NCBI RefSeq assembly: GCF_019264445.1
Contig: NZ_JAHVAB010000090.1
Coordinates: 1 to 64,000 of the forward strand
Direction: 5' to 3'
Length of the DNA stretch: 64,000 nucleotides
Origin: Hydrogenophaga sp.
GTDB taxonomy: Bacteria > Pseudomonadota > Gammaproteobacteria > Burkholderiales > Burkholderiaceae_C
Shown piece after piece: positions 1,889-18,998 of the stretch (its first letter is position 1; each line of letters starts with the position of its first letter). Below the pieces are notes generated by a model that ran no database searches, was not told the DNA's origin, and worked only from the letters and a program-made list of their open reading frames with translations. The position numbers were made by a program, and so were the translations under genes.

Positions 1889-1909
1889 TCAACCAACCAG
1901 GGGAACCCT

Positions 1910-2977: not shown

Positions 2978-4905
2978 GCGGCGCATGGCAGCCGCTGCCC
3001 ACCGGTGAGTTCACCGGCATCGACTGGAGCGCGCCCGGCGCCATCGACGGCGAAGACCCCTACCTCGCTTGGGCCGAGGCCGATCATTTCGCCGGCTACC
3101 ACCTGGGGCGGGGCAAGAAGCCACCCAAGTGGTTGCCGATCGTGATCGAGCTGAGCGCCCATGCCGACGTGCCCGCGCTGGTGGCGGCTTCGTCCACCGC
3201 GTGGCTGCAGATTCCGCGTGTGTACCTCAACATGCCGGGCTTGCGCTTTTGCAGCGCGCGCGTGAAGCGGCGCTTCTTCGACCAATGGCGCCAAAACGCT
3301 CACCTGCGTGGGCTGATCCAGCGCTTCGAGCTGGGCTTGCCTGTGGGCCACCACACGCACCCGCTGGTGGACCCGTGCACCCCTGGCAGCCAGCCCGCCC
3401 CTGCGCCGGGGCTGCTCACTGGCAAGGTGCTGGGCCTGATCGACGGTGGCCTGGCGTTCGCCAACGACCAGTTTCTCGACACGCAAGGCCGCACGCGGGT
3501 GAAGCACTTCTGGCGGCAGGACGACACCGTCAATGGCAACTGGCCCGGCAACCAGCCGCGCCACCGCGTGCCGCTGGACCCCACCCGCGCAGGGCCCACA
3601 CCGTGCGACATGGGTTACGGTCACGAACTCTCGGGTGCCGCCATCGACGCGGCCATGGCGGCCCACACGCACCACGGCCAGCTGGACGAAGCGGCGCTCT
3701 ACCAACACCTGCAGCTCTGGGACCTGAGCCGGCCGGTGAACCACGGCACGCACGTGATGAGCCTGGCCTGCGGCAAGGGCAACCGGCTGCACCCCATGGA
3801 CGACGAGGCCAGCCGCTGCGATCTCGTGGCGGTGCAGCTCGATTGGTCCAACGTGCTCGACACCTCGGGCGGCGCGATGAACGTGAGCGTGCTAGACGGC
3901 CTCATGTACATCCTCGCGCGCTGCGCGCCAACGGCGCAGGTGGTGGTGAACATCAGCTGGGGCACGCTGGCCGGCCCGCACGACGGCACCTCGGTGCTGG
4001 AGGCCGCCATGGACCAGCTCATCGAGCTGCTCGGTGGCCGCCTGCAAGTGGCGGTGCCCGCCGGCAATGCCTACCAGAGCCGCACCCACGCCAACGCCAG
4101 CTTGCCGCCCGGCGAATCGGTGACGCTGCACTGGCGCGTGCAGCCCGACGACCGCACGGAAAGCTATCTGGAAATCTGGCTGCCCGAGGGCGCAGAACAC
4201 GTGCAGATCAGCGTGACACCGCCGGGCCAGGCCCAGCCCCTGCCACCCATGCGCATGGGCCATGCCGGCTTGTGGACCGAGGCCAACAACACGCCCCGCT
4301 GCGGCCTGATCTACCCCCGCACCTCGGCGCTGGGCAGCCACGGCACCTGCGCGCTGCTGGCGCTCGCACCCACCTTCAGCCGCAAGGCCACCGTGACGAC
4401 CGCGCCCTTTGGCGCGTGGAAAGTGACGCTCGCCAACACCGGCACCACCGCCACGCTGTTCGACGCCTACATCGAGCGCGACGACGTGGCCATCGGCCAG
4501 AACACCGGGGCACGGCAGTCGTACCTGGAAGACGTGTTCTACGACACCAGCGGCAACCTGGGCTCCTTCGTGGACCATGCCGACAACCCGACGCCCATTC
4601 GGCGCAGCGGCACGTTCAACAGCCTGTCCACCGGCCAGCGCACCGTGAGCGTGGGCGGCGTGCGCCATGCACCGTCTGCCGGCGGGCTCTTTGCGCTGTA
4701 TTCCCCGCGCAAGCCCGACCCCGACGCCAGCCGGCCACAACGCCCCGGAGTGAAAAACGTGCCCGACACACTGCAACCCTGCGACGACAACCCGGCGCTG
4801 TGGGGGGTGCTCGGTGCGGGCAGCCTCAGCGGCAGCGTGGTGCGCCTGGCGGGCACGAGTTCATCGGCCCCTTTGCAGGCGCGGGCCCTGCTCGACCACC
4901 TCTGA
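2974..4905 (+). CDS. Subtilisin-like (S8) serine peptidase
   Basis: 643 aa from the ATG at 2974. I prefer this over the GTG two codons upstream because AAGGAG lies five bases before it and the ATG overlaps the previous stop (ATGA). The S8 residues are in order: Asp157 (LIDGG), His257 (NHGTH), oxyanion Asn365 (PAGN), and nucleophile Ser629 (GTSSSAP). The Ser lies only 14 residues from the C-terminus, so there is no C-terminal extension. There is no signal peptide or obvious prodomain, but a long N-terminal region (1-145) and a roughly 260-residue stretch between Asn and Ser, probably beta-rich. It is predicted to act inside the cell, with the co-translated PAP2 enzyme as likely partner. Substrate unknown. 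Confidence 0.87.
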   Translation: MSGAWQPLPTGEFTGIDWSAPGAIDGEDPYLAWAEADHFAGYHLGRGKKPPKWLPIVIELSAHADVPALVAASSTAWLQIPRVYLNMPGLRFCSARVKRRFFDQWRQNAHLRGLIQRFELGLPVGHHTHPLVDPCTPGSQPAPAPGLLTGKVLGLIDGGLAFANDQFLDTQGRTRVKHFWRQDDTVNGNWPGNQPRHRVPLDPTRAGPTPCDMGYGHELSGAAIDAAMAAHTHHGQLDEAALYQHLQLWDLSRPVNHGTHVMSLACGKGNRLHPMDDEASRCDLVAVQLDWSNVLDTSGGAMNVSVLDGLMYILARCAPTAQVVVNISWGTLAGPHDGTSVLEAAMDQLIELLGGRLQVAVPAGNAYQSRTHANASLPPGESVTLHWRVQPDDRTESYLEIWLPEGAEHVQISVTPPGQAQPLPPMRMGHAGLWTEANNTPRCGLIYPRTSALGSHGTCALLALAPTFSRKATVTTAPFGAWKVTLANTGTTATLFDAYIERDDVAIGQNTGARQSYLEDVFYDTSGNLGSFVDHADNPTPIRRSGTFNSLSTGQRTVSVGGVRHAPSAGGLFALYSPRKPDPDASRPQRPGVKNVPDTLQPCDDNPALWGVLGAGSLSGSVVRLAGTSSSAPLQARALLDHL

Positions 4906-5575: not shown

Positions 5576-6268
5576 TCACGGGTGGGAAAACTCCGTGGCA
5601 TTGTGGGGCATGGGCGTGATGATGCGCAAGGCAGGGACCACCGGCGGCAGCGTGTTGACCCGGTGCAGCAGGTCGCGGATGCTGGGCGAGCCGGCTTTTT
5701 CGCGCAGCGTCTTCACCTGGCTGCGAATGGTGGACTCGGCCACGCCGTGCTCCTTGGCGATTTCGGCGATCTGCCAACCCCGGCACAGGCCCATGAGCAC
5801 CGACTCCTCGCTCGGGCTCAAGCCCAGCGTGCGCGCAAACATGCGCACCGCGAGGTTGTCGCTCGGGCTCTGGCGCGAGAGCAGCACCAGCACCGATGGC
5901 GCATCGGGCTCCAGCGGATGGCTCAGCGGCATGAAGGCCAGCGACAGCTCCTTGTCGCCCACGTTCAGCATCACCAGCTTGCGCTGGCCGCGAAACGACG
6001 ATTCCATGGCGTGCTGGATCTGCGAAGTGAATTCCGCGCTGCTGCCGAGCAGGCTGTTGCCGTACGACATGATCAAGCGGCCCTGGGCGAGCTCGTGGCG
6101 CGCGAGGTGGTTGGCGTGCAGGATGTGGCCCTGCGGATCGATGATCAGCATGCCGTAGTCGATCTCGTCGAACACCCGCATGAGCTGCTGGTGCGACAGG
6201 ACCGCGCGCGTGCTGCTGCCGGTCGCGTCCGAGCCGCCGTTCCACGACGTATCTGATGTCTGCCACAT
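5576..6268 (-). CDS. PAS-like / LuxR-type HTH transcriptional regulator
   Basis: 230 aa from the ATG at 6268, chosen because an AGGGG ribosome site lies about ten bases upstream; the frame stays open further upstream but runs antiphase through the ThDP enzyme gene. Residues about 27-115 look like a PAS sensor (FDEIDYGMLIIDPQGHILHAN start). Residues about 148-205 are a LuxR/GerE helix-turn-helix (LGLSPSEESVLMGLCRGWQIAEIA). There is no receiver domain, so it is not a classic response regulator. It lies 86 bases downstream of the ThDP enzyme gene on the same strand and just upstream of the Crp-type gene. The sensed signal is unknown. Confidence 0.82.
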   Translation of the reverse strand: MWQTSDTSWNGGSDATGSSTRAVLSHQQLMRVFDEIDYGMLIIDPQGHILHANHLARHELAQGRLIMSYGNSLLGSSAEFTSQIQHAMESSFRGQRKLVMLNVGDKELSLAFMPLSHPLEPDAPSVLVLLSRQSPSDNLAVRMFARTLGLSPSEESVLMGLCRGWQIAEIAKEHGVAESTIRSQVKTLREKAGSPSIRDLLHRVNTLPPVVPALRIITPMPHNATEFSHP

Positions 6269-6354: not shown

Positions 6355-8058
6355 TTACCTTGCGCCGCCCTGCGCCGCCTGCCGGATGGCCGTGAGCGTG
6401 CCGCGGGTGGTGATCACATCCACGTCCAGCATCACCTCGATCAGGCTGCCACCCGGTGCGGCCAGGGCGCGTTGCAGCGCGGGCTCGAACTCGGCCGTGT
6501 GCGTGATGCGCTCGGCCTGGTAGCCATAGGCGCGGGCCAGCGCGCAGAAGTCGGGGTTGCTCAGGCCTGAGCCGCTCACATGCGCGGGGTACTCGCGCTC
6601 CTGGTGCATGCGGATGGTGCCGAAGCTGCCGTTGTTGAGCAGCAGCACGATGCTTTTGGCGCCATGCTGCACCGCCGTGGCGAGCTCCTGCCCGTTCATG
6701 AGGAAGTCGCCGTCGCCGGCAATGGTGAAGGCTGTGCGACCCGTGAGGATGGCCGCACCGATGCCCGCAGGCACGCCGTAGCCCATGGCGCCATTGGTGG
6801 GGGCCAGCTGCGTCTTGAAGCCCTTGGCCAGGCCCGGGTAGCGGTAGAAGCGGTGCAGCCAGCTGGCGAAGTTGCCAGCACCGTTGGTGAGCACGGCATC
6901 GGCCGGCAGGTGCGCCTGCAGCGTGTGGATGAGCGCGGGCATGTCGATGGTGCCGGGCAGCACCACGCCGCCATTGGCCACATCGATGTTGGCGAGGTAG
7001 TCGGCGTGGCAGGCCTGTGCCCACGCTTGCCACGGCACCGATGGCGGCGCGGTGAGCACCTCCAGGCTGCGGGCGGCGGCGTTCAGCGTGGCGTGGATGG
7101 CGAGCGTGGGCTGGTAGACCCGGCCCAGCTCCTCGCCGCTGGCGTGGATGTGCACCAGCTTCTGACGGGGCAGCGGCGCCTCGATCAAGGTGTAGCCGCC
7201 GGTGGTGGCCTCGCCCAGGCGTGGGCCGATGGCGATCAGCAGGTCGCTTTCGCGCACGCGCCGCGCCAGCGCCGGGTTGATGCCCAGCCCCACGTCGCCC
7301 GCGCACAGCGGGTGGTGGTTGTCAAAAGTGTCCTGGAAGCGAAAGGCGTTGGCCACCGGCAGCTGCCAGTTTTCGGCGAAGCGCTGCAGCGCGGCGGCCG
7401 ACTGCGGTGTCCAGCCGCCACCGCCGGCGATCACCAGCGGGCGCTCGCTGGCCAGCAGCAGGGTGCGCAGCTCGCGCAAGGCACCCGGGTCGCTCCAGGC
7501 CTGCACCGGCTCCACGCGCGGCAGGGGTTCGGCGTCCACGCTCTGCGTGAGCATGTCTTCGGGCAGCACCAGCACCACCGGGCCGGGCCGTCCGTTCATG
7601 GCGGTGGCAAACGCGCGCGCCACGTATTCGGGAATGCGGCGTGCGTCGTCAATGCGCTCCACGCGCTTGGCCATGCCCTTGGTGGACGGGCCGAAGAACG
7701 CGGCGTAGTCCACCTCCTGAAAGGCCTCGCGGTCGCGCGCGTCGCTCGCCACGTCGCCCACAAAAAGCACCATGGGTGTGGAATCCTGGAACGCGGTGTG
7801 CAGGCCGATGGACGCGTTGGTGGCACCGGGCCCGCGCGTCACGAAGCACACGCCCGGCCGCCCGGTGAGCTTGCCCTGCGCCTCGGCCATGAAGGCCGCG
7901 CCGCCTTCCTGCCGGTTGGTGATGAATCGAATGCGATCGGCGTGGGCATGAAAGCCGTCGAGCACCGCGAGGTAACTTTCCCCGGGCACGCCAAAGGCGT
8001 GCGTCACACCCTGGACAATCAGACATTCCACAAGCAGGTGGCCAGCGATGCGGGTCAT
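6355..8058 (-). CDS. ThDP-dependent 2-oxoacid enzyme (acetolactate synthase-like)
   Basis: 567 aa. Three-domain ThDP enzyme of the acetolactate synthase / benzoylformate decarboxylase superfamily. Catalytic Glu51 (NRQEGGAAF) activates ThDP. The C-terminal ThDP/Mg motif runs from Gly448-Asp-Gly450 to Asn475-Asn476. It could decarboxylate or carboligate a 2-oxoacid, as these enzymes do. Biosynthetic acetolactate synthase is less likely because there is no ilvN subunit gene next to it and the context is catabolic. It is divergent from the tetR gene across only 35 bases, which are almost entirely the proposed operator, so it is probably repressed by that TetR. No Shine-Dalgarno is visible; the mRNA may be nearly leaderless. 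Confidence 0.85.
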   Translation of the reverse strand: MTRIAGHLLVECLIVQGVTHAFGVPGESYLAVLDGFHAHADRIRFITNRQEGGAAFMAEAQGKLTGRPGVCFVTRGPGATNASIGLHTAFQDSTPMVLFVGDVASDARDREAFQEVDYAAFFGPSTKGMAKRVERIDDARRIPEYVARAFATAMNGRPGPVVLVLPEDMLTQSVDAEPLPRVEPVQAWSDPGALRELRTLLLASERPLVIAGGGGWTPQSAAALQRFAENWQLPVANAFRFQDTFDNHHPLCAGDVGLGINPALARRVRESDLLIAIGPRLGEATTGGYTLIEAPLPRQKLVHIHASGEELGRVYQPTLAIHATLNAAARSLEVLTAPPSVPWQAWAQACHADYLANIDVANGGVVLPGTIDMPALIHTLQAHLPADAVLTNGAGNFASWLHRFYRYPGLAKGFKTQLAPTNGAMGYGVPAGIGAAILTGRTAFTIAGDGDFLMNGQELATAVQHGAKSIVLLLNNGSFGTIRMHQEREYPAHVSGSGLSNPDFCALARAYGYQAERITHTAEFEPALQRALAAPGGSLIEVMLDVDVITTRGTLTAIRQAAQGGAR

Positions 8059-8087
8059 TTGACTTTATTAACCAATTAGAGAATTAT
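8059..8087 (+). promoter_or_regulatory. Candidate tetR promoter (TTGACT / AATTAT)
   Basis: A -35-like TTGACT at 8059-8064 and a -10-like AATTAT at 8082-8087 are separated by 17 bases. Transcription would begin at about the tetR ATG (8094), giving a leaderless message. The operator dyad fills the spacer and -10. Confidence 0.45.
8067..8084. promoter_or_regulatory. TetR operator copy 1 (divergent ThDP enzyme / tetR)
   Basis: ATTAAC-caatta-GAGAAT, an imperfect dyad with six-base arms and a six-base centre. It matches the dyads at 8785-8802 and 14204-14221 in arms, spacing and flanking TATT...AATTA bases. It lies between the two divergent start codons, 8 bases from one and 9 from the other, so one bound dimer could block both genes. 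Confidence 0.6.
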
Positions 8088-8093
8088 TGCGGC

Positions 8094-8744
8094 ATGAGCA
8101 CCCCACCCACACCCGTGACGGAAGAGCGCCTGAGAGACGCCGACCGCTCGCAGAATACCATTCTGATCGCGGCGCGAGACGAGTTTGCGGAGCATGGTCT
8201 GGGGGGTGCGCGCATGGACCGCATCGCTGAACGCGCGGGCCTGAACAAGCGCCTGATCTACTACTACTTCGAGGACAAGGAGCGGCTGTTTCAGGCCGTG
8301 CTGGAGCAGGCCTACCGCGACATCCGCGAGGAAGAGCAGCAGCTCAACCTGCTGCACCTCAAGCCCGAAACCGCGCTGCGCCGCCTGGTGGAGTTCACCT
8401 GGAACTACTACCTGGAGCACCCGGAATTTCTCACCCTGCTCAACAGCGCCAACCTGCACCGCGCGCGCCACCTGGAGCAGTCCGAGCGGGCCCGCCAGCT
8501 GAACTCGCCGCTGATCGCCACGCTGGGCGAAATCATTGAACGCGGCCGGGCAGACGGAAGCTTTCGCGGGGGTGTCGATCCGCTGCAGCTCTATGTGTCG
8601 ATCGCCGGGCTGTCGTACTTCTACCTCTCCAACAACCACACGCTCTCGGCCATCTTCGGGCGCGACCTCATGACGCCCAAGGCGCGCAGCGAACGCCTGT
8701 CCCACATGTGCGAGGTGATCCTAGGGTATGTCCTGATGAGCTGA
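8094..8744 (+). CDS. TetR-family transcriptional regulator
   Basis: 216 aa. N-terminal TetR helix-turn-helix at about residues 20-65 (ARMDRIAERAGLNKRLIYYYF is the HTH and following helix), followed by an all-helical ligand and dimer domain. No Shine-Dalgarno precedes the ATG, and a promoter placed so that +1 falls on the start codon suggests a leaderless transcript. The gene sits between the divergent ThDP enzyme gene and the Bug-TctBA unit. A shared dyad at its own promoter and two others points to autoregulation and control of the whole island. The effector is probably the transported acid or a metabolite of it (inference). Confidence 0.9.
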   Translation: MSTPPTPVTEERLRDADRSQNTILIAARDEFAEHGLGGARMDRIAERAGLNKRLIYYYFEDKERLFQAVLEQAYRDIREEEQQLNLLHLKPETALRRLVEFTWNYYLEHPEFLTLLNSANLHRARHLEQSERARQLNSPLIATLGEIIERGRADGSFRGGVDPLQLYVSIAGLSYFYLSNNHTLSAIFGRDLMTPKARSERLSHMCEVILGYVLMS

Positions 8745-8757
8745 AGTGGCTGGCGGC

Positions 8758-8786
8758 TTGACGGGCCGGGGTGTGGTTTCTACTAT
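8758..8786 (+). promoter_or_regulatory. Candidate promoter of the Bug-TctBA-isomerase-enolase unit
   Basis: TTGACG at 8758-8763 and TACTAT at 8781-8786 have a 17-base spacer. The operator at 8785-8802 overlaps the -10 and start point, as expected for repression by blocking polymerase. Confidence 0.6.
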
Positions 8787-8802
8787 TAACTGCTCGGTGA
8801 AT
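8785..8802. promoter_or_regulatory. TetR operator copy 2 (upstream of first Bug gene)
   Basis: ATTAAC-tgctcg-GTGAAT. Twenty of 24 bases in the extended element are identical to the copy at 14204-14221, including the shared GGTGAATTAAA right flank. It lies 19 bases upstream of the first Bug start codon. Confidence 0.65.
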
Positions 8803-8821
8803 TAAACCCTGGAGACCACGC

Positions 8822-9829
8822 ATGAAAACCGCCCTGCCCCTTCGCCATCTGTTCATCACCTCCCTGCTGACCCTGGCCACGGCCAGCGCCATGGCCCAGT
8901 GGAAGCCCGACCGCCCGATCACGCTGATCGTGCCGTGGGCACCGGGCGGCTCCACCGACCAGGTCTCGCGCGTCACGGCGGCCGAGCTTGAAAAGCACCT
9001 GGGCCAGAAGATCGTGGTGATGAACCAGCCAGGCGCCTCGGGCTCGGTGGGCACCAAGAACGCCATGGCCGCGCCCGCCGACGGCTACACCTGGACCGCT
9101 GGCGGCGCCAAAGACCTCGGCACCTACAAGGTGCTGGGCATGCTCGACACCTCGGCCAACGACTGGAACCTGTACCTGAATGTGGCGCACATCGCGGTGG
9201 TGGGCGTGAACGCCGACGCGCCGTACAAGAACATGACCGAACTGCTCGCCGCCATGAAGGCCAAGCCCGGCGCGGTGTCGGTGGCCACGGCCGGCGTGAA
9301 CTCCAGCGGCCACTCGGCCATTGAAGCCATCGCCCGTGTGGCCGGTGTGACCTACAAGCACGTGACGTACGACGGCGGTGCACCCGCCGCCGTGGCCGCC
9401 GCCTCTGGCGAAACGGAAGTGACCACGCAGCTGGCCGCCGAGCAGACCGACATGATCCGCGCCAAGAAGATCCGCCCGCTGGCGGTGGTGGGCGACAAGT
9501 CGATCGAGATCGAAGGCTACGGCACCATTCCGCCGCTGTCGCAGTTCATCCCTGGCTTCAAGGACCCGATCAACTACTTCGGCATCTTCGTGCCCAAGGG
9601 TGCGCCCGCCGAAGTGAAGCAGACGCTGGACAAGATCTGGGCCACCGAAATGGTCAAGAGCGAAGCGCTGCGCAAGTACGCGCAGTCGCGCGGCGCGATG
9701 TTCGCACCCATGGCGGGTGACGAGGCGCAGAAGGCCGTGTTCCCGGCCATCCAGTCGTACGCCTGGACGCAGCAAGCCGCCGGCAAGGCCAAGGTGTCGC
9801 CCGACACCGTGGGCATTCCCAAGCCCTGA
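8822..9829 (+). CDS. Tripartite tricarboxylate transporter substrate-binding protein (Bug family)
   Basis: 335 aa with a Sec signal peptide (cleavage likely after Ala25, AMA|QW). The mature protein begins with the Bug pattern: VPWAPGGSTD in the first ligand loop, then a GASG turn and APADGYT. It is a periplasmic receptor for a carboxylate, delivering it to TctAB. GGAG lies seven bases before the ATG. It is the first gene of a five-gene unit and has the proposed TetR operator in its promoter. It is distant in sequence from the second Bug protein at 14257, so the two may bind different ligands or isomers. Confidence 0.92.
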   Translation: MKTALPLRHLFITSLLTLATASAMAQWKPDRPITLIVPWAPGGSTDQVSRVTAAELEKHLGQKIVVMNQPGASGSVGTKNAMAAPADGYTWTAGGAKDLGTYKVLGMLDTSANDWNLYLNVAHIAVVGVNADAPYKNMTELLAAMKAKPGAVSVATAGVNSSGHSAIEAIARVAGVTYKHVTYDGGAPAAVAAASGETEVTTQLAAEQTDMIRAKKIRPLAVVGDKSIEIEGYGTIPPLSQFIPGFKDPINYFGIFVPKGAPAEVKQTLDKIWATEMVKSEALRKYAQSRGAMFAPMAGDEAQKAVFPAIQSYAWTQQAAGKAKVSPDTVGIPKP

Positions 9830-9850
9830 GCACACCGCGCGGAACATCAC

Positions 9851-10345
9851 ATGACCGAGGGTGGAAAAACCGCCCGCTCCGACCTCTGGGGCGGAGCGGG
9901 TTGGGTCTTGTTCGGCCTGCTGATCGTGGCGGGCTCTGTGCGCATGGACCGCTTTGAGGCCATGGGCGCGCAGCTCTACACCATGCCGGGCTTCGTGCCC
10001 GGCATCATCGGCGCCGTGGTGGCGCTGCTGGGGCTGGTGCTGATGCTGCGCGGCGGCCTGCGCCACACCAAGGAAGCGGGTGCGGCCAGTGAACCCGCCG
10101 AACCGCTGCTGAACCGGCGCATCGTCATCACGATGCTGCTGTCGGTGTTCTACGCGGGCCTGCTGATCGGCCGCGCCCCGTTCTGGCTGGTGACGGCGCT
10201 GTTTGTTGCGGCCTTCGTCGCCACCTTTGCCCCGGCCGAGCAGACCCTGCCCCGCCGCCTCGCCGTGGCGGTCATCGCAGGCGTGCTCACCTCGGCCGTC
10301 GTCACCGTGGTGTTTCAGCAGGTCTTTCTCGTTCGCCTTCCCTAG
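9851..10345 (+). CDS. tctB: Tripartite tricarboxylate transporter small membrane subunit TctB
   Basis: 164 aa integral inner-membrane protein with four hydrophobic segments (about 12-30, 42-64, 90-110, 118-155), the usual size and layout of TctB. It forms the small permease subunit with TctA and is driven by an ion gradient, as known for the family. It starts 21 bases after the Bug gene and stops seven bases before tctA. The ribosome site is weak, suggesting expression depends on the upstream gene. Confidence 0.88.
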   Translation: MTEGGKTARSDLWGGAGWVLFGLLIVAGSVRMDRFEAMGAQLYTMPGFVPGIIGAVVALLGLVLMLRGGLRHTKEAGAASEPAEPLLNRRIVITMLLSVFYAGLLIGRAPFWLVTALFVAAFVATFAPAEQTLPRRLAVAVIAGVLTSAVVTVVFQQVFLVRLP

Positions 10346-10352
10346 GACCCCC

Positions 10353-11846
10353 ATGTTTGACGGACTGATCATGTTCGGGCAGTCGATCGCGCGCTTCAGC
10401 AGCGTGGAGACGATTGCCTATGCCCTGCTGGCTTCGCTGGTGGGTGTGGTGATGGGCGCCCTGCCGGGCTTGACCGCCACCATGTCGCTGGCGCTGATGA
10501 CCACGCTCACGCTCAAGCTGCCGCCCAGCCAGGCGCTGCTGATCCTCATCTGCACCTACGTGGGCTCGATCTACGGCGGCTCGCGCTCGGCCATCCTGCT
10601 CAACATTCCGGGCACCCCGGCGTCGGCCGCCTCGTGCCTGGACGGCTATGCGCTGGCGCGCCAGGGCATGGCCGGCCGCGCCATGGGCATCGCCACCACG
10701 GGCTCGGTCATGGGCACGCTGATCGGCATGTTCTTCCTCGCCACGTTCACGCCTGTGCTGGGTGGGCTGGCGCTGAAGTTTGGTGCGTACGAGTTCTTCT
10801 GGCTCGCGCTCTTCGGCGTCATCATCGCCGGCACCCTCACGGGCGACGACCCGCTCAAGGGCTGGATCGCGGGCATCGCGGGCCTGTTCATCGCCACCAT
10901 CGGGCAGGAGCCGCAATACGGCTACGAGCGCTTTGCCTTTGGCGTGCGCGACCTGGCCGGCGGCATCCAGCTGGTGCCGGCGCTCGTGGGCGCGTTCGGT
11001 TTTGCCGAGCTGCTCACCGCCATGCGGCAACGCCAGCTGCCGGTGAAGATCAGCGCATTCGACACGGTGATCCCCAAGGTGCGCGACGTGTTCCAGTACT
11101 GGCGCACCATCTTGCGCTCGGGCCTGATCGGCACTGGCGTGGGCATTGTGCCGGGCGTGGGGGAAGACGTGGCGGCGTGGTCGTCGTACGCAGCAGCCAA
11201 GCGCGCGAGCAAGGAAAAAGAGAAGTTCGGCAAGGGCTCGGTGGAAGGCCTCATGGCCGCCGAAACCGGCGACAACGCCTGCGTGCCCGGCGCGGTCATC
11301 CCGGTGCTCACGCTGGCCATTCCGGGCTCGGCGCCGGCTGCGGTGCTGATGGCCGCGATGATCATCCACGGCGTCAAGCCCGGGCCGCTGATCATGGTGG
11401 AGAACCCCGAGTTCGTGTACGACGTGGTGACCATGATGCTGTTTGCCACGGTGGGCATCCTCATCTTCGGCCTGGTGCTCACCAAGGCGCTGGTGCAGGT
11501 GCTGCGCGTGCCCCAGCACCTCATCACGCCCATCGTTTTCGTGCTCTGCACCGTGGGCAGCTTTGCGATTGCCGGGCGCCTGTTCGACGTGTACGTGATG
11601 CTCGCCTTCGGCCTCATCGGCTTTGGCCTGCGGCACTACGGCTACCCCATGGCGCCGCTGGTGCTGGGCATCGTGCTCGGCGACCTGCTGGAGAAGAACC
11701 TGCGCCGCGCGCTGATCCTCTCCGACGGCAACCTCTCGCCCTTCTTCACCCGGCCCATCGCCGGTACCGTGGCGGCGCTCATCTTCGCCACCATCGGCTG
11801 GAAGCTCTGGGCACTCTATGGCCGCAAGCCCAAGGCCCCCACATGA
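10353..11846 (+). CDS. tctA: Tripartite tricarboxylate transporter large permease TctA
   Basis: 497 aa from the ATG at 10353, the family's normal length; the open frame upstream overlaps tctB and is not needed. Many hydrophobic helices. The first half carries the TctA signature region GALPGLTATMS...YGGSRSAILLNIPGTP, and the second half repeats it as GIVPGVGEDVAAW, reflecting internal duplication. It carries the substrate across the inner membrane with TctB after capture by a Bug protein. The stop overlaps the isomerase start (ATGA), so downstream translation is coupled. It is the only TctA in the island and must serve one or both Bug proteins. Confidence 0.93.
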   Translation: MFDGLIMFGQSIARFSSVETIAYALLASLVGVVMGALPGLTATMSLALMTTLTLKLPPSQALLILICTYVGSIYGGSRSAILLNIPGTPASAASCLDGYALARQGMAGRAMGIATTGSVMGTLIGMFFLATFTPVLGGLALKFGAYEFFWLALFGVIIAGTLTGDDPLKGWIAGIAGLFIATIGQEPQYGYERFAFGVRDLAGGIQLVPALVGAFGFAELLTAMRQRQLPVKISAFDTVIPKVRDVFQYWRTILRSGLIGTGVGIVPGVGEDVAAWSSYAAAKRASKEKEKFGKGSVEGLMAAETGDNACVPGAVIPVLTLAIPGSAPAAVLMAAMIIHGVKPGPLIMVENPEFVYDVVTMMLFATVGILIFGLVLTKALVQVLRVPQHLITPIVFVLCTVGSFAIAGRLFDVYVMLAFGLIGFGLRHYGYPMAPLVLGIVLGDLLEKNLRRALILSDGNLSPFFTRPIAGTVAALIFATIGWKLWALYGRKPKAPT

Positions 11847-12673
11847 AGCTGGCGCTGTGCAACGAGGTGCTGCAGCCCATGACGCTGGACGCGCAGTGCC
11901 AGGCCGCCGCGCGCATGGGCTACGACGCACTGGAAATCGCGCCCTTCACCCTGACCGACACACCCGAGGCGCTGGATGCCGCCGCCGCACGCCAGGTGCG
12001 CGGCACCGCGCACAGCCACGGACTGGCGGTCTCCAGCCTGCACTGGCTGCTGGTCAAGCCCGATGGCCTGTCGCTCGTGACGCACGACGCCGCGCTGCGC
12101 CAGCGCACGCTGGACCTGCTGCGCCGCCTGATCGACTTCACCGCCGCCTGCGGTGCGCGCGTGCTGGTGCACGGCTCGCCCCGCCAGCGCTCGCCCTCGG
12201 CGGGCCAGACGGTGGAGGACGCCCATGCGCGCTTCGAATCCGCCATGGCCGAGCTGGCGCCGCATGCCCAGGCCGCAGGCGTCGTCTATTGCATCGAACC
12301 GCTGGGGCGGTTTGAAACGAATGTGGTGAACACCGTGGCCGAAGCAGCGGCGATGGTCGACCGCATCGGCTCCCCTGCCCTGCGCACCATGCTGGATGTG
12401 AGCGCTGCGTCGCACAGCGAGACCGAGCCCGTGCACGAGGTGCTGCGCCGCTTCCTGGCCAGCGGCCACATCGCCCACGTGCAGGTGAACGACAAGAACC
12501 GCCGCGGCCCCGGCCAGGGCGACACCGACCAGCGCCCCGTGCTGCAAGTGCTCAAGGACGCCGGCTACAGCGGCTGGGTGGCCGTGGAACCGTTTGAATA
12601 CCTGCCCGATGGCCCGGGCTGCGCCCGCGCCTCGGCACAACACGTCAGAGATCTCTGGAGAACCCTTTCATGA
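11843..12673 (+). CDS. Sugar phosphate isomerase/epimerase family protein (TIM barrel)
   Basis: 276 aa xylose-isomerase-like TIM barrel (AP endonuclease 2 superfamily). Predicted metal ligands are Glu152 (CIEPLG), Asp185 (TMLDVS), His212 (AHVQVND) and Glu249 (AVEPFE), in the order seen in IolE, hydroxypyruvate isomerase and tagatose epimerase relatives. It probably isomerises or epimerises a hydroxy-keto intermediate. It starts within the tctA stop (ATGA) and ends within the enolase-family start (ATGA), so it is tightly coupled. A second, distant paralogue lies at 17829. The exact substrate cannot be named. Confidence 0.82.
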   Translation: MKLALCNEVLQPMTLDAQCQAAARMGYDALEIAPFTLTDTPEALDAAAARQVRGTAHSHGLAVSSLHWLLVKPDGLSLVTHDAALRQRTLDLLRRLIDFTAACGARVLVHGSPRQRSPSAGQTVEDAHARFESAMAELAPHAQAAGVVYCIEPLGRFETNVVNTVAEAAAMVDRIGSPALRTMLDVSAASHSETEPVHEVLRRFLASGHIAHVQVNDKNRRGPGQGDTDQRPVLQVLKDAGYSGWVAVEPFEYLPDGPGCARASAQHVRDLWRTLS

Positions 12674-14025
12674 CCGGTGTGACCCTGCGCGTCCACGAAG
12701 TGCAGCTGTACCAGCGCCACGTCACGCTGCGCCTGCCGTTTCGCTTTGGCGCCGCCACCGTCACGCAATGCCCCCAGGCCTTTGTGCGCGTGGTGGCCGT
12801 GGCCAACGGCCAGCGCGTGCAAGGCGCCAGCGCCGAGCTGATGGTGCCCAAGTGGTTCGACAAATCGCCTGCGCTCACCCACGAGCAAAACTTCGAGCAA
12901 CTGCGCGAGTCGCTGCGCAACGCGCGCGAAGCCGTGCTCGCTGCCGGCGTGGCGCTCAGCCCGCACGCGCTGTCGCAAGAGGCGGGTGAAGCCGCGATGG
13001 TCGTGTCCGTGGGGCGCGGCCTGCCTCGGCTGGCCGCGCAGTTCGGCACCGCGCTGCTCGACAAGGCCGTGGCCGACGCCGCACTGCGCGCCGCGGGCCT
13101 GCCCTGGGTGGAAGGGCTGCGCGCGGGCGTGCTGGGCGACCCATGGGGCCCGCGGCTGTCTCTGCAGCGCCCCGCGCAGGTGGTGCTGCGCCACACCGTG
13201 GGCCTGGCCGACCGCCTCACCGACGCCGACCCCGGCACCGACCCGCAAGACGGCCTGCCCGCCACGCTGGAGGCCGCCATCCGCCGCCACGGCCTGCACC
13301 ACTTCAAGCTCAAGCTGTGCGGCCAGATCGAGGCCGACGTGGAGCGGCTCACGCGCATCGTCGAGGTGCTGCAGCGCCTGGGCGGCGACTACCGCGTCAC
13401 GCTCGATGGCAACGAAACCTTCACCGACGCCACCAGCCTGGGGCGCTTCTGGCACACCCTGCGCACCACGCCCGCGCTGGCCGAGCTGCTGCGCCGCACC
13501 CTGCTGCTGGAGCAACCGCTGGCGCGCGCCGTGGCGCTGCGCGAGTCCATCGCCTCGCTGGGCATCGGTGTGCCGGTGATCCTGGACGAGTCGGACGACC
13601 ACACCGAAGCGCTCGACGAGGGCCTGGCCCTGGGCTACCACGGCATCTCCAGCAAGGCCTGCAAAGGCATCTACCGCTCGCTGCGCAACGCCCACCGCAT
13701 CGCGCAAGACCCGCGCCTGCTGCTCTCGGGCGAAGACCTCACCTGCCAGGCCGGCCTGGCGGTGCAGCAAGACACCTTGCTCGCCGCCAGCCTGGGCGTG
13801 ACCCACATCGAGCGCAACGGGCACCACTATGTGGACGGCTTTGGCACCGCGCCTGAAGAAGAGGCGCAGGCCTTCGCGGCGGCGCACCCCGGCCTGTACG
13901 AAAACAGCACCGGCCGCCCCCACCTCGCGGTCCACCAGGGGCAGCTCGACCTGACCTCTTTGCACGTGCCGGGCTTCGCGTCGGCGGCGGCACCGGTGTG
14001 GCGCAGCCTGCAGGCCATCGCCTGA
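12670..14025 (+). CDS. Enolase-superfamily enzyme, muconate lactonizing-type residues
   Basis: 451 aa. N-terminal capping domain followed by a modified TIM barrel. Predicted active-site residues: Lys213-x-Lys215 (FKLKLC) on strand 2; metal ligands Asp246 (with Asn248, LDGNETF), Glu281 (LLEQPL) and Asp306/Glu307 (LDES); and Lys329/Lys332 on strand 6 (SSKACK). KxK plus an opposing Lys is the muconate-lactonizing/dipeptide-epimerase arrangement rather than the acid-sugar dehydratase His type. It would abstract a proton next to a carboxylate, giving epimerisation, dehydration or cycloisomerisation. It is longer than typical members (350-400 aa). Last gene of the first TetR-controlled unit; a 231-base gap follows. 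Confidence 0.8.
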   Translation: MTGVTLRVHEVQLYQRHVTLRLPFRFGAATVTQCPQAFVRVVAVANGQRVQGASAELMVPKWFDKSPALTHEQNFEQLRESLRNAREAVLAAGVALSPHALSQEAGEAAMVVSVGRGLPRLAAQFGTALLDKAVADAALRAAGLPWVEGLRAGVLGDPWGPRLSLQRPAQVVLRHTVGLADRLTDADPGTDPQDGLPATLEAAIRRHGLHHFKLKLCGQIEADVERLTRIVEVLQRLGGDYRVTLDGNETFTDATSLGRFWHTLRTTPALAELLRRTLLLEQPLARAVALRESIASLGIGVPVILDESDDHTEALDEGLALGYHGISSKACKGIYRSLRNAHRIAQDPRLLLSGEDLTCQAGLAVQQDTLLAASLGVTHIERNGHHYVDGFGTAPEEEAQAFAAAHPGLYENSTGRPHLAVHQGQLDLTSLHVPGFASAAAPVWRSLQAIA

Positions 14026-14166
14026 GAGTTCACCAAACAGTTAACAAAATGGCTTGGGCACCACGGCTACACCGCGCTGATCGGTAGCCGGAAGTCGCTC
14101 CAATCCTCCCGATTCGCCAGGCCTTCCCCCTTGATAACGTCCGCATTAAGAAATTCCTCCCCGGGC

Positions 14167-14196
14167 TTGCAACCCAGTCCTCATCGCCCCTATAAT
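14167..14196 (+). promoter_or_regulatory. Candidate promoter of second Bug-Gfo/Idh-DUF993 unit
   Basis: A perfect TATAAT -10 at 14191-14196 and a TTGCAA -35-like box at 14167-14172, 18 bases apart. The predicted start, near 14203, abuts the operator dyad at 14204-14221. The rest of the 14026-14256 gap shows nothing else I can name. Confidence 0.65.
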
Positions 14197-14203
14197 TTCT
14201 GCT

Positions 14204-14221
14204 ATTCACTGAATGGTGAAT
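14204..14221. promoter_or_regulatory. TetR operator copy 3 (upstream of second Bug gene)
   Basis: ATTCAC-tgaatg-GTGAAT, a perfect dyad of six-base arms; the best of the three copies. It sits at the predicted transcription start, 35 bases before the Bug start codon. Confidence 0.7.
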
Positions 14222-14256
14222 TAAAACCACAACCAGCCGCTTCACTGGAGACACAC

Positions 14257-15228
14257 ATGAAACTCATCCACGCCACCGCCCTGACCGTGCTCGCCCTCAG
14301 CGCCAGCCTGCCCGCCGTTGCCCAGCAGGGCTACCCGAACAAGGCCATCCGCGTGATCGTGCCGTTCGCCGCCGGCAGCACCACCGACATCATTGCCCGC
14401 GCCATCACCGACAAGATGAGCCAGAGCATGGGCCAGCCCATCGTGGTGGACAACCGCGGCGGCGCGAGCGGCACCATCGGCCAGGCGGCGGTGGCCACGG
14501 CAGCACCCGATGGCTACACCATCATGATTCACTCGTCCTCGCACACGGTGAGCCCTTCCACCTTCGCCAAGCTGTCGTTCGACACCGTGGGTGACTTCGC
14601 CGGCGTCACGCCGATCTCTTCCACGCCCAACGTGCTGGTGATCGCGCCGAGCAAGAACATCAAGACGCTGCAGCAGCTGGTATCCACCGCCAAGGCCAAC
14701 CCGGGCAAGATGAACTTCGCCTCTGCCGGCCAGGGCAGCGCCACGCACCTCAACGCCGAGAAGTTCAAGATGGCCGCGCAGATCGACGCGGTGAACATCC
14801 CCTTCAAAGGCTCTGCCGAGGCGGTGACCGAAGTGCTCGCCGGGCGCGTGGACTACTACTTCTCGCCCATCGCCCCGGTGATCGGCCAGATCAAGGAAGG
14901 CCAGCTGCTCGCGCTGGCCGTGGGCTCGCCGCGCCGCGCGAGTGCCCTGCCCGATGTGCCCACCACCGCCGAAGCCGGCGTGCCGGGCTCCGAGTTCAAT
15001 TTCTGGATCGGGATGATGGCCCCGGCCAAGACGCCGCGCGACGTCGTCAACCGCCTGCACGACGAGGTGGTGAAGGCCCTGGCCACCCCGGAAGTGAAGG
15101 AACGTTTCCTGAAGCTGGGCGCCGACGCCTGGACGCTCAAGCCCGAGCAGTTCGACGCCTACATCAAGGAAGAAATCAAGAGCAACGCCACGCTGGTGAA
15201 GGCCGCCGGCCTGCAAGTGGCCAACTGA
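14257..15228 (+). CDS. Tripartite tricarboxylate transporter substrate-binding protein (Bug family), second copy
   Basis: 323 aa from the ATG at 14257 (GGAG nine bases upstream; the open frame extends further but contains the promoter). The signal peptide likely ends at AVA|QQ near residue 22. Classic Bug sequence: IRVIVPFAAGSTTD loop, VVDNRGGASG, AAPDGYT, and ADVPTTAEAG-like SALPDVPTTAEAGVPG near residue 237. It is a periplasmic carboxylate receptor without its own TctAB, so it probably shares the permease encoded at 9851-11846. It heads the Gfo/Idh-DUF993-isomerase unit and carries the best copy of the proposed TetR operator. Confidence 0.92.
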   Translation: MKLIHATALTVLALSASLPAVAQQGYPNKAIRVIVPFAAGSTTDIIARAITDKMSQSMGQPIVVDNRGGASGTIGQAAVATAAPDGYTIMIHSSSHTVSPSTFAKLSFDTVGDFAGVTPISSTPNVLVIAPSKNIKTLQQLVSTAKANPGKMNFASAGQGSATHLNAEKFKMAAQIDAVNIPFKGSAEAVTEVLAGRVDYYFSPIAPVIGQIKEGQLLALAVGSPRRASALPDVPTTAEAGVPGSEFNFWIGMMAPAKTPRDVVNRLHDEVVKALATPEVKERFLKLGADAWTLKPEQFDAYIKEEIKSNATLVKAAGLQVAN

Positions 15229-15270
15229 GCCCGACGGGCATTACACGAAAGAAGAGAAGGAAACCGCACC

Positions 15271-16434
15271 ATGGCAGTTCAACAACTCGGGATCATCATG
15301 CACGGCGTCACCGGGCGCATGGGCATGAACCAGCACCTGATCCGCTCCATCTGCGCCATTCGCGCCCAGGGCGGCGTGACGCTGTCCAACGGCGACAAGG
15401 TGATGCCCGACCCCATCCTGGTCGGCCGCAACGCCGAGAAGATGGAAGCGCTGGCCAAGGCCCACGGCATCGCACGCTGGGGCACCGACCTCGACGCCGC
15501 GCTGGCCAACCAGAGCGACACCGTCTTCTTCGACGCCGGCACCACCCAGATGCGCCCCACCCTGCTGGCCAAGGCCATCCGCGCCGGCAAGCACGTGTAC
15601 TGCGAGAAGCCCATTGCCACCAACCTCAACGAGGCGGTGGAGATTGCGCGCCTGGCCGAGAGCTCGGGCCTGAAGCACGGCGCCGTGCAGGACAAGCTCT
15701 TCCTGCCCGGGCTGCGCAAGCTCGACATGCTGCGCCGCGCCGGCTTCTTCGGCCGCATGCTCAGCGTGCGCCTGGAGTTTGGCTACTGGGTGTTTGAAGG
15801 CGACCTGCAGCCCATCCAGCGCCCGAGCTGGAACTACCGCAAGGAAGACGGCGGCGGCATGATCCTGGACATGATGTGCCACTGGCGCTACGTGCTGGAC
15901 AACCTGTTCGGTGAAGTCAAGTCGGTCTCGTGTATCGGCACCACGCACATCCCCACACGCTGGGACGAAGCCGGCAAGCCCTACGAGTGCACGGCCGACG
16001 ACGCCGCCTACGCCACCGCCGAACTCACCGGCCACAACGGCGAACACGTGATCGCGCAGCTCAACATGAGCTGGGCCACCCGCGTGAACCGCGACGACCT
16101 CGTGACCTTCCACGTCGACGGCACGCACGGCTCGGCCGTGGCCACGCTCACCGGCTGCAAGGCGCAGAGCCGCGTGAACACGCCGCGCCCGGTGTGGAAC
16201 CCGGATGTGAAGAACACGATGAACTTCTCCGAGCAGTGGCAGGACGTGCCGGACACGCAGGTGTACGACAACGGCTTCAAGATCCAGTGGGAACACTTCA
16301 TCCGCCACGTGGTGGAAAACGAGCCCTACAAGTGGACGCTGCCCGAAGGCGCCAAGGGCGTGCAGCTGGTGGAAGCCGCGCTGGAGAGCTGGGAACAGCG
16401 CCGTTGGGTCGACGTGCCCGAACTAAAGATGTAA
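15271..16434 (+). CDS. Gfo/Idh/MocA-family oxidoreductase
   Basis: 387 aa. N-terminal Rossmann fold with a glycine-rich nucleotide loop (HGVTGRMG, 11-18) and the family's Glu112-Lys113-Pro114 motif (CEKP), whose Lys contacts substrate. The C-terminal alpha/beta domain follows, with a candidate catalytic His in the DMMCHWRYVLD region (about residue 207). It would oxidise or reduce a hydroxyl/carbonyl of a polyol, sugar or sugar acid with NAD(P). AAGGAA lies about seven bases before the start. It begins 42 bases after the second Bug gene and is probably in its operon. Substrate unknown. Confidence 0.88.
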   Translation: MAVQQLGIIMHGVTGRMGMNQHLIRSICAIRAQGGVTLSNGDKVMPDPILVGRNAEKMEALAKAHGIARWGTDLDAALANQSDTVFFDAGTTQMRPTLLAKAIRAGKHVYCEKPIATNLNEAVEIARLAESSGLKHGAVQDKLFLPGLRKLDMLRRAGFFGRMLSVRLEFGYWVFEGDLQPIQRPSWNYRKEDGGGMILDMMCHWRYVLDNLFGEVKSVSCIGTTHIPTRWDEAGKPYECTADDAAYATAELTGHNGEHVIAQLNMSWATRVNRDDLVTFHVDGTHGSAVATLTGCKAQSRVNTPRPVWNPDVKNTMNFSEQWQDVPDTQVYDNGFKIQWEHFIRHVVENEPYKWTLPEGAKGVQLVEAALESWEQRRWVDVPELKM

Positions 16435-16510
16435 CCCCCGCCGCGCTTCGCGCGACCCCCTTACAGGGGGCGACACCAGCCGTCCGGCAAAGCCGGCCCG
16501 GCGGTGTCTC
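16435..16510. repeat. Mosaic intergenic palindrome, copy 1
   Basis: Three consecutive dyads: CGCG-ctt-CGCG; CCCCC-ttaca-GGGGG (16456-16470); and a long stem of GACACC (16472-16477) with GGTGTC (16503-16508) enclosing CCGGC/GCCGG. The same layout with different paired bases occurs at 59610-59680. It fills the gap between the Gfo/Idh and DUF993 genes. Confidence 0.7.
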
Positions 16511-16549
16511 TGGACTCAGTCACTTCGCGCGTTGCGCTGGAGCTTCTAC

Positions 16550-17734
16550 ATGACTCTCTCTCTCACCCTCCCCAACGCCTCGGGCAAGCTCGAGGCCTAC
16601 ACCCTGCGCGGCACGGCCCCGGCCAAGCCCGCCAAGGGCGTGAAGTTCAATCGCATCGCCTACTCGGCTGCCCACGTGGTGGCCAACCCGCTGGCCGCCA
16701 TCGACCCCTGGCTGCAATGCGCCGTCGACTGGGACGCCACCATCGCCTACCGCCAGCACCTGTGGTCGCTGGGCATGGGCGTGGCCGAGGCCATGGACAC
16801 CGCGCAGCGCGGCATGGGCATGGACTGGCCCACGTCGCTCGAACTCATCCGCCGCTCCATCGACGCCGCGCAAGACGTGCCCGGCGCGCTCGTGGCCTCC
16901 GGCTGCGGCACCGATCATCTGGTGCTGGAAGACGTCAAGTCTGTCGACGACGTGATCGCCGGCTACGAAATGCAGATGGCCGCCATTGAAAAGCTCGGCG
17001 GCAAGCTGATCGTCATGGCCAGCCGGGCGCTGGCCCGCGTGGCCCGCAGCCCGGCCGACTACGAGCGCGTGTACGACCGCATCCTGAGCCAGGCCAAACA
17101 GCCCGTGGTGCTGCACTGGCTGGGCGACATGTTCGACCCCGCCCTCAAGGGCTACTGGGGCAGCGACGATGCCGACAAGGCCATGGACACCGCACTGGCC
17201 GTGATCGCCGCGCACCCGAGCAAGGTGGACGGCATCAAGATCTCCCTGCTCGACAAGGACAAGGAGATCGCGATGCGCCGGCGCCTGCCGCCGGGCGTGC
17301 GCATGTACACCGGCGACGACTTCAACTACGCCGAGCTGATCGCCGGCGACGGCGTGGGCAGCGAGATCACGCACCGCCAGAGCGACGCGCTGCTGGGCAT
17401 CTTCGATGCCATCGCACCGGCGGCCAGCGCGGCGCTGGGCGAGCTGGCGCAAGGCAACGTCGAGAAGTTCCACGAGATCCTCGGTCCCACGGTCCCGCTC
17501 TCGCGCCACATCTTCGCGGCGCCCACGCGCTTTTACAAAACCGGCGTGGTGTTCATGGCCTGGCTCAACGGCCACCAGACGCACTTCACGCTGGTGGGCG
17601 GGCAGCAGAGCACCCGTTCGCTGCCGCACCTGGCCGAGCTGTTCCGCCTGGCCGACGCCGCGAACCTGCTGGAGCAACCCGACCTGGCCGTGCAGCGCAT
17701 GAGGACGCTGGCTGCCGTGCACGGGGTGGCCTGA
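16550..17734 (+). CDS. DUF993 / dihydrodipicolinate synthase-like aldolase-family protein
   Basis: 394 aa from the ATG at 16550, with GGAG seven bases upstream. It resembles DUF993 proteins, which are distant relatives of class I TIM-barrel aldolases (DHDPS/NAL). Lys230 in the VDGIKIS segment sits where the Schiff-base Lys (GIKE/D) is found, so pyruvate- or aldehyde-forming cleavage is possible, but this has not been shown for the family as far as I know. Notable features are RMYTGDDFNY (about 253-262) and a YKTGVVFMAWLNG-like C-terminal segment. It lies between the Gfo/Idh and isomerase genes, and these three are likely co-expressed. Confidence 0.75.
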   Translation: MTLSLTLPNASGKLEAYTLRGTAPAKPAKGVKFNRIAYSAAHVVANPLAAIDPWLQCAVDWDATIAYRQHLWSLGMGVAEAMDTAQRGMGMDWPTSLELIRRSIDAAQDVPGALVASGCGTDHLVLEDVKSVDDVIAGYEMQMAAIEKLGGKLIVMASRALARVARSPADYERVYDRILSQAKQPVVLHWLGDMFDPALKGYWGSDDADKAMDTALAVIAAHPSKVDGIKISLLDKDKEIAMRRRLPPGVRMYTGDDFNYAELIAGDGVGSEITHRQSDALLGIFDAIAPAASAALGELAQGNVEKFHEILGPTVPLSRHIFAAPTRFYKTGVVFMAWLNGHQTHFTLVGGQQSTRSLPHLAELFRLADAANLLEQPDLAVQRMRTLAAVHGVA

Positions 17735-17828
17735 CAGCCCGTCGGGCTGAGCTTGTCGAAGCCCATCCCAACACCGCACGCGAGCCCTTCGACAAGCTCA
17801 GGGCGAACGGTTTCTCTGGACAGCATCC
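17735..17828. repeat. Intergenic inverted repeat (GAGCTTGTCGAAG family)
   Basis: GAGCTTGTCGAAG (17749-17761) and CTTCGACAAGCTC (17788-17800) are inverted copies about 26 bases apart, followed by AGGGCGAACGG. CCCTTCGACAAGCTCAGGG-type sequences are a common dispersed intergenic repeat in proteobacteria. The stem could also attenuate transcription before the isomerase gene. Confidence 0.65.
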
Positions 17829-18707
17829 ATGCGCGACTTCTCGCAAGACCACCACTGGCTCTCCATCAACACCGCCACCGTGCGCAAGAGCCGGGGCGCC
17901 GACCTCCCGCTCACCGACATCCTCGATGCTTGCGCGCGCCATGGCATCGGCGCGGTGTCGCCCTGGCGCGACCAGGTGGCAGCCGTCGGGCTCAAGACCG
18001 TGTCGGCGCAAGTCAAGTCGCTCGGCCTGAAGCTCTCCGGCTATTGCCGTGGCGGCATGTTCCCGGCGGTGGACGCCGCCGGCCTGCAGGCTGCGCGCGA
18101 CGACAACCGCCGCGCGGTCGACGAGGCCTGTGAACTCAACGCCCCGTGCCTGGTGCTGGTGGTGGGCGCCCTGCCCGGTGCACTGGCCGGCAAGGCCGCG
18201 CACAAAGACATGGGCCGCTCGCGCCAGCAGGTGCACGACGGCATTGCCGAACTGCTCGAATACGCCCGCACCTGCGGCATGCCGCTGGCCATCGAGCCGC
18301 TGCACCCCATGTACGCCGCTGACCGCGCGTGCATCAACACCATGGAGCAGGCGCTCGATGTGTGCGATGCACTGGACCCCGCCAGGAGCGGCGCGCTCGG
18401 CGTGGCGGTGGACGTGTACCACGTGTGGTGGGACCCGAAGCTGCAAGCGCAGATCGAGCGCGCCGGGCGCTCGCGCCTGCTGGCCTTTCATGTGTGCGAC
18501 TGGCTCACGCCCACCACCGACCTGCTCAACGACCGGGGGATGATGGGCGATGGCGTGATCGATATTCCGCGCATCCGCGGCTGGGTCGAAGCCCAAGGCT
18601 TCTCGGGCTTCAGCGAGGTGGAGATCTTTTCCACCGGACACTGGTGGCAGCGGCCGCACGACGAGGTGCTCAAGACCTGCATCGAGCGGCACCGCAGCGC
18701 AGTGTGA
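17829..18707 (+). CDS. Sugar phosphate isomerase/epimerase family protein (TIM barrel), second copy
   Basis: 292 aa xylose-isomerase-like TIM barrel. Candidate metal ligands are Glu156 (AIEPLH), Asp195 (AVDVYHVWW), His221 (AFHVCDW) and Glu265 (SEVEIFS). The VDVYHVWWD segment is typical of a subgroup often found beside Gfo/Idh/MocA dehydrogenases. It probably acts on the product of the neighbouring dehydrogenase or the DUF993 enzyme. It is the last gene of the second TetR-controlled unit, with 94 bases of repeat-bearing DNA before it. Substrate unknown. Confidence 0.82.
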   Translation: MRDFSQDHHWLSINTATVRKSRGADLPLTDILDACARHGIGAVSPWRDQVAAVGLKTVSAQVKSLGLKLSGYCRGGMFPAVDAAGLQAARDDNRRAVDEACELNAPCLVLVVGALPGALAGKAAHKDMGRSRQQVHDGIAELLEYARTCGMPLAIEPLHPMYAADRACINTMEQALDVCDALDPARSGALGVAVDVYHVWWDPKLQAQIERAGRSRLLAFHVCDWLTPTTDLLNDRGMMGDGVIDIPRIRGWVEAQGFSGFSEVEIFSTGHWWQRPHDEVLKTCIERHRSAV

Positions 18708-18731
18708 GGCGCCGCAACCGCTGCGCCGTGC

Positions 18732-18998
18732 TCAGCGCAGCGGCACTTCGGTGCTGGCGGTCAGCACCGCCGCGCCCCGCTCGGGCTGGGCACGTTTCTC
18801 GTCGGCGAGGATGAGCGAGCCGGTGGTGCGCTGCTGAATGCGGCGCTGTTCACCCCGCTCCGTGATGCCGTTGAGCACGGCAATGAACCATATGAGCAGC
18901 AGGCCGGCGGCAGCAAACAACACCCACACCAAGGCCCCGGAAGCCGAGTCCATCCACTCGGGGGTTGCGCTGCGGACCTTGTAGGCAGACCGGTTCAT
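18732..18998 (-). CDS. Small single-pass membrane protein, unknown function
   Basis: 88 aa. One strong transmembrane segment at about residues 22-43 (GALVWVLFAAAGLLLIWF), with a polar, Arg/Glu-rich C-terminal tail. AGGAG lies six bases before the ATG, supporting expression. I do not recognise a family. It is convergent with the isomerase gene and downstream, on the same strand, of the DUF1631 gene, about 130 bases away; the gap holds nothing I can name. Confidence 0.65.
   Translation of the reverse strand: MNRSAYKVRSATPEWMDSASGALVWVLFAAAGLLLIWFIAVLNGITERGEQRRIQQRTTGSLILADEKRAQPERGAAVLTASTEVPLR

Follow-up and report, generated by a model that had tools for sequence, protein, structure and literature searches.

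The 64-kb window analysed here (Hydrogenophaga sp., assembly GCF_019264445.1, contig NZ_JAHVAB010000090.1, positions 1 to 64,000) carries a tetR gene at position 8094. It is read divergently from the gene of a thiamine diphosphate (ThDP)-dependent enzyme (thdP) and is followed by two units, each beginning with a gene for a TctC-type solute receptor (bug1 and bug2). An 18-bp dyad is found at four places in this locus, and these candidate operators are very probably binding sites of the cluster's own TetR. The regulator, the four sites and the predicted promoters are as follows:

8094..8744, plus strand: tetR, 216 amino acids, with TetR_N (PF00440) and TetR_C_29 (PF17938); the proposed cognate repressor.
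8067..8084: operator 1, ATTAACCAATTAGAGAAT; separates the divergent genes thdP and tetR, within the -35/-10 spacer of tetR and reaching into its -10.
8785..8802: operator 2, ATTAACTGCTCGGTGAAT; overlaps the -10 and the predicted start of the bug1 operon promoter.
14204..14221: operator 3, ATTCACTGAATGGTGAAT; at the start point predicted for transcription of the bug2 operon.
14028..14045: operator 4, weaker, GTTCACCAAACAGTTAAC; 3' of the gene for an enolase-like protein, 176 bp upstream of operator 3.
8059..8087, plus strand: predicted tetR promoter, TTGACT-17-AATTAT.
8758..8786, plus strand: predicted bug1 promoter, TTGACG-17-TACTAT.
14167..14196, plus strand: predicted bug2 promoter, TTGCAA-18-TATAAT.

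The original prediction had read three copies of ATT(A/C)AC-N6-G(T/A)GAAT in this DNA, and all three are present, at 8067-8084, 8785-8802 and 14204-14221, with no mismatch to ATTMACN6GWGAAT. Identity of copies 2 and 3 at 20 of 24 bases, also stated there, is true in one register, with 19 identical bases in four others tried. The outer 6+6 bases are self-complementary at 8 of 12 positions in copy 1, 10 of 12 in copy 2 and 12 of 12 in copy 3. Operator 4 is an additional copy absent from that list of three; it has two mismatches to the pattern, and its first base lies three bases past the stop codon of the enolase-like gene. When up to two mismatches are allowed, the window holds 16 matches (both strands, near-palindromic sites being counted twice) against a shuffle mean of 3.4, and none of 100 shuffles reached 16.

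A simple sigma70 consensus scan of positions 7900-14400 gave exactly three sites, with 0.4 expected, and one operator sits on each. The earlier claim that every copy lies on a promoter is thereby borne out, as is the placement of copy 1 between tetR and thdP, of copy 2 over the bug1 -10 and of copy 3 at about the bug2 start point. An operator over a -10, at a start point or in the -35/-10 spacer is typical for repression. Operators 2 and 3 lie over the predicted -10 or start, and operator 1 sits between the -35 and the -10 of tetR, overlapping the -10. That the TetR at 8094 represses itself and other genes, as first proposed, is read from these positions, and its link to the element is the part supported by the comparisons below. 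Some members of the TetR family act as activators, and the protein could do so at one or more of the promoters, but with sites at such repression-typical positions this is very unlikely.

The predicted -10 of tetR, AATTAT (8082-8087), ends only six bases 5' of the ATG at 8094, and a leaderless mRNA is therefore probable for this gene. The ATG of thdP stands eight bases from operator 1, and its mRNA may be leaderless like that of tetR. No sigma70-like site was found in 14200-19200, and the bug2 unit is therefore probably a single transcript.

Genome-wide searches were made with patterns, and matrices were scanned over the window and selected loci. A 26-bp matrix, trained on 22 sites from seven other genomes of the genus, gave the four operators as its top four matches in the window (38.7, 36.9, 35.9 and 24.5; next 13.0). 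The best of 12 first-order simulated windows reached 11.7, and further stretches of the own genome (131,860 bases) a maximum of 15.9, apart from two sites at a paralogous locus on contig C8. An 18-bp matrix was trained solely on the 14 tetR-flanking sites of the same seven genomes, and operators 3 and 4 are therefore predicted by it, not fitted. It, too, puts the four operators first in the window (30.0, 28.6, 28.1 and 16.5), the next match scoring 8.9. The seven training loci contain one background match above 12 (14.9) in 135,505 bases.

The strict pattern ATTMACYNNNNRGTKAAT, with at most one mismatch allowed, has seven sites in the own genome, and its reversed control zero. Three are at the locus, two beside the C8 TetR, and two inside open reading frames (ORFs; C41:80728 and C80:135747); outside ORFs, which were called mechanically, strict sites occur solely at the tetR 8094 and C8 loci. 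The original prediction had named occurrence at many unrelated promoters as a finding that would speak against it. This is not the case in the own genome, where five of the seven strict sites are at TetR loci and two in ORFs. A broad own-genome regulon was rejected, as strict matches beyond the two TetR loci fall inside ORFs. A looser pattern with one mismatch matched 93 times (both strands) and its reversed control 42 times, which means that relaxing the pattern mainly brings in noise. The looser pattern has two extra zero-mismatch sites. C30:10998 falls within an ORF that resembles an aminotransferase, and C50:33832 separates a LysR-type gene from a divergent gene resembling a ferredoxin oxidoreductase; these names come from the translations.

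A tetR orthologue with 87-94% identity was found in 7 of 35 other same-genus genomes searched (this search gave 33 matches, and loci were obtained for 30 of them), and in all seven an operator stands on either side of the gene. When the intergenic DNA is aligned, conservation is seen in three blocks: the -35, the operator together with the -10, and the region for ribosome binding. Strict sites with at most one mismatch number 38 in the eight genomes that carry an orthologue (the own genome among them) and 19 in the 28 that lack one; over all 36 genomes the reversed control matches 11 times. In 24 genomes of other families, strict counts of 0-13 overlap with controls of 0-12, and the pattern alone is therefore uninformative there. 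Operators 3 and 4 are both present in all four relatives whose bug2 has an intergenic region of its own (L060, L061, L065 and L066), and neither occurs in the other three: L063 and L064 lack bug2, and in L062 the gene directly adjoins the one before it. The operator follows the promoter. It is this conserved position that argues for the candidate operator 4, which is not secure by score alone. The start-to-start spacing of operators 3 and 4 in five genomes is 176, 117, 174, 201 and 107. Simple looping between them is not favoured, as the spacing varies over 107-201 bp and no helical phase is kept.

A similar dyad lies upstream of a tripartite ATP-independent periplasmic (TRAP) transporter gene in G003 and G011 (L071:3967 and L072:4002). 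It was rejected as an own-genome target, as the 84% identical gene (L078) has no counterpart of the site.

Of 399 genomes sampled from the family, 79 have a homologue of tetR (E up to 1e-70), paralogue types and own genome included. At 29 other-genus family loci the 18-bp matrix found 58 sites with a score of at least 15, two each and one per tetR side; all 29 have a site within 1.5 kb of tetR, and the second site of L102 is 1.4 kb away. Six column-shuffled palindromic controls gave 0 or 1 site at these loci; they were used instead of a cruder control (complemented matrix, threshold 11) that matched 9 of the 29.

Named genomes were represented by the best 80 of 294 relatives. Their loci have 159 sites with a score of at least 13, none inside tetR, and 80/80 have one within 1.5 kb; three shuffled controls gave 2, 0 and 3 sites. 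The sites stand on both sides of tetR in 78 loci, and the other two are truncated by contig ends. Training genomes account for seven of the 80, and the remaining 73 all keep a site at score 20. Since 11 of the 29 other-genus loci recur among the 80, there are 91 distinct further loci (73 named and 18 others), and every one of the 91 has a site no more than 1.5 kb from its tetR homologue. The consensus of the 159 sites is the 18-bp dyad RTTMACYNNNNRGTKAAY. The stretch NKRLIYYY of the recognition helix is identical in 76 of the 80 named loci. The nearest recognised gene after tetR is bug1, bug2 or a Gfo/Idh/MocA gene in 78 of the 80, and the nearest before it is divergent thdP in 52.

The element is AT-rich and stands in promoters of a GC-rich genome, and loose matching is noisy, as the 93 versus 42 matches indicate; the sites could on these grounds be regarded as chance similarity of AT-rich promoter DNA. 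The shuffles, the reversed strict pattern without a match in the own genome, the column-shuffled matrices and the conservation all speak against chance. This explanation is already contradicted for operators 1-3, and its overall probability is negligible.

At 20 loci with less similar TetRs (56-67%), a site with a score of at least 13 is present in 17, and at score 20 in 14. L069, from another family of the order and with a 58% identical TetR, has variant sites TTTAACCNNNNAGTTACA at L069:9620 and L069:11571, one immediately 5' of tetR and the other some 1.2 kb 3' of it; they suggest that the operator may drift with the protein. Among TetR relatives of at most 47% identity, 6 of 17 loci have a loose match with one or two mismatches. 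Five loose-match loci (L046, L047, L049, L050 and L057) have beside tetR a different, less symmetric motif, ATTAACNNGTTCGTNCAT. Their TetRs are about 40-44% identical, and this motif is perhaps the operator of a sister subgroup.

The C8 TetR (C8:3939-4616) is 58% identical to the TetR at 8094 and is flanked by sites at C8:3859 and C8:4659, which score 28.7 and 26.8 with the 18-bp matrix. At this locus (L028, G000:C8), positions 1806-4676 hold the paralogous tetR, an amidohydrolase and a Bug receptor, with a weak third site at 3911. Both proteins could share one operator code and bind the operators of the 8094 locus, so that two catabolic loci would be cross-regulated. The scores of the C8 sites beside 28.1-30.0 for operators 1-3 favour this, as do a C8-type locus in G011 (L067) with a site on each side of tetR and the restriction of non-ORF strict sites in the own genome to the two TetR loci. 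On the other hand, the recognition helices differ (LNKRLIYYYF in the 8094 TetR, VDKKLVYYYF in the C8 TetR), the C8-type sites, only five in number, lack the ATTAAC half common at 8094-type loci, and L202, a locus of another genus with C8-type neighbours, has no site with a score of at least 13. Such sharing is possible but doubtful. A fuller version appears slightly less likely again and is unlikely as a whole: one code would serve two paralogous TetRs with different ligands and cross-wire two Bug-linked loci, and operator 4 would turn the bug2 promoter into a switch with two sites, possibly working by looping or as a roadblock. The TetR at 8094 may thus have company on its operators.

The genes proposed to be under the control of the 8094 TetR are listed below, in their two orientations around the regulator:

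6355..8058, minus strand: thdP, ThDP-dependent enzyme of the acetolactate synthase kind, NF006052 subfamily; proposed divergent target of operator 1.
5576..6268, minus strand: LuxR-like regulator, with a GerE match below the Pfam cut-off; 86 nt behind thdP.
8822..9829, plus strand: bug1, TctC-type solute receptor.
9851..10345, plus strand: tctB.
10356..11846, plus strand: tctA.
11843..12673, plus strand: first xylose-isomerase-like TIM barrel, AP_endonuc_2.
12670..14025, plus strand: enolase-superfamily-like protein, MR_MLE_C.
14257..15228, plus strand: bug2, second TctC-type solute receptor.
15271..16434, plus strand: Gfo/Idh/MocA oxidoreductase.
16547..17734, plus strand: DUF993 protein.
17829..18707, plus strand: second xylose-isomerase-like TIM barrel, last gene of the bug2 unit.

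The regulator has the TetR_N helix-turn-helix (PF00440, E 3.3e-15, above cut-off) and a C-terminal ligand and dimer domain of the TetR kind (PF17938, E 3.4e-47), and a palindromic operator at its own promoter is recognised by sequence only. TctA, TctB and a TctC-type receptor occur together (PF01970, PF07331 and PF03401), as in a tripartite tricarboxylate transporter. The closest solved chain to the oxidoreductase is 3oqb ('oxidoreductase') and to the DUF993 protein 4dnh ('uncharacterized protein'); those closest to the second isomerase are 3ju2 ('uncharacterized protein SMc04130'), 3qc0 ('sugar isomerase') and 7vpf ('xylose isomerase'). The oxidoreductase, DUF993 and isomerase genes form a trio at 15271-18707 whose nearest solved relatives bear general names only. 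For the enolase-superfamily-like protein a sequence search found no solved relative. With tripartite tricarboxylate uptake, isomerases, an enolase-like protein, a Gfo/Idh/MocA dehydrogenase and a ThDP enzyme in the gene content, our guess for the substrate is a sugar acid or a cyclitol-like carboxylate.

A Crp-type gene is next behind the LuxR-like gene. No sigma70-like site was found in the 86-nt gap between thdP and the LuxR-like gene, which is possibly part of the thdP transcript. A predicted regulon of tetR and about 11 further genes is well supported. The 11 other genes of the original prediction are a fair count if the LuxR-like gene is co-transcribed with thdP, and the Crp-type gene would make 12. 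In five of the seven orthologous loci of the genus the LuxR-like and Crp-type genes adjoin thdP (of the remaining loci, one stops near thdP and in the other no thdP is seen), and the sites might belong to one of these neighbouring regulators or another protein. However, the sites stay with tetR in all 80 named loci, including 28 without a recognised upstream thdP in the stretch, and the C8 tetR is flanked by sites as well, with no LuxR-like or Crp-type relative detected in the 20 kb around it. Assignment to another regulator is thus highly improbable.

The reading we prefer, with good confidence, is that the TetR at 8094 binds the dyad at four places, represses all units and is released by the substrate or a metabolite. 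A TetR dimer would bind the 18-bp dyad. At operator 1 it would block its own promoter and divergent thdP, at operator 2 the operon of bug1, tctB, tctA, isomerase and enolase, and at operators 3 and 4 the operon of bug2, oxidoreductase, DUF993 protein and isomerase. Operator 4 may assist operator 3, or roadblock read-through from the bug1 operon. Binding of the imported substrate or an early metabolite to the PF17938 domain would release the repressor and induce all units together. Sequence and comparison support the predicted operators, their conservation, the connection to this TetR and the way they overlap predicted promoter elements; we infer that the protein binds, that control is negative and that a pathway metabolite causes the release.

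Several observations weigh against this reading. The scan found no sigma70-like promoter for thdP, and relative L066 retains operator 1 with thdP not detected. Operator 4 is without a recognised promoter of its own, and its score of 16.5 is near that of background matches (16.7, 15.9 and 15.8 in L067, L068 and L070). The 28 same-genus genomes without an orthologue have their 19 strict sites, and one genome of another family has 13 versus 5 in the reversed control. Three of the 20 loci with less similar TetRs, L202 included, have no site with a score of at least 13 within 1.5 kb. Finally, the C8 sites equal operators 1-3 in score, and therefore sequence alone cannot assign each site to one protein.

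The result is a precise candidate operator for a TetR subgroup with homologues in about a fifth of the sampled family genomes. Such operators help in deciding which genes are part of the pathway, whose proteins mostly have closest solved relatives with general names only, and are a handle for finding the substrate of the catabolic cluster. That a local TetR repressor controls its own gene and uses one operator at several promoters is textbook knowledge, and the locus is a solid case of this ordinary kind of bacterial gene control, conserved in relatives. A literature search of titles and opening abstract text found no description of this regulon, and a search by domain name no characterised PF17938 TetR. 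The protein is closest in sequence to the solved chain 3npi, named only 'TetR family regulatory protein'. ScbR-type and RutR are its best similarities in NCBIfam, but with 55.3 of 150 and 44.6 of 368 bits, respectively, it is far below both cut-offs and is therefore neither. It is most like local repressors of the TetR_C_29 (PF17938) kind, with which it shares TetR_N and PF17938 and a palindromic operator, about 18 bp long, that is present both at the regulator's own divergent promoter and at transport and catabolic operons nearby. Phylogenetic footprinting of regulogs in Proteobacteria likewise gave conserved palindromes, mostly of 15-25 nt, upstream of regulator targets (PMC5343134). In the available part of that source, the method and the kind of result are the same as here, and the TetR groups FabR, FadP, LiuQ, PsrA and RutR control other pathways.

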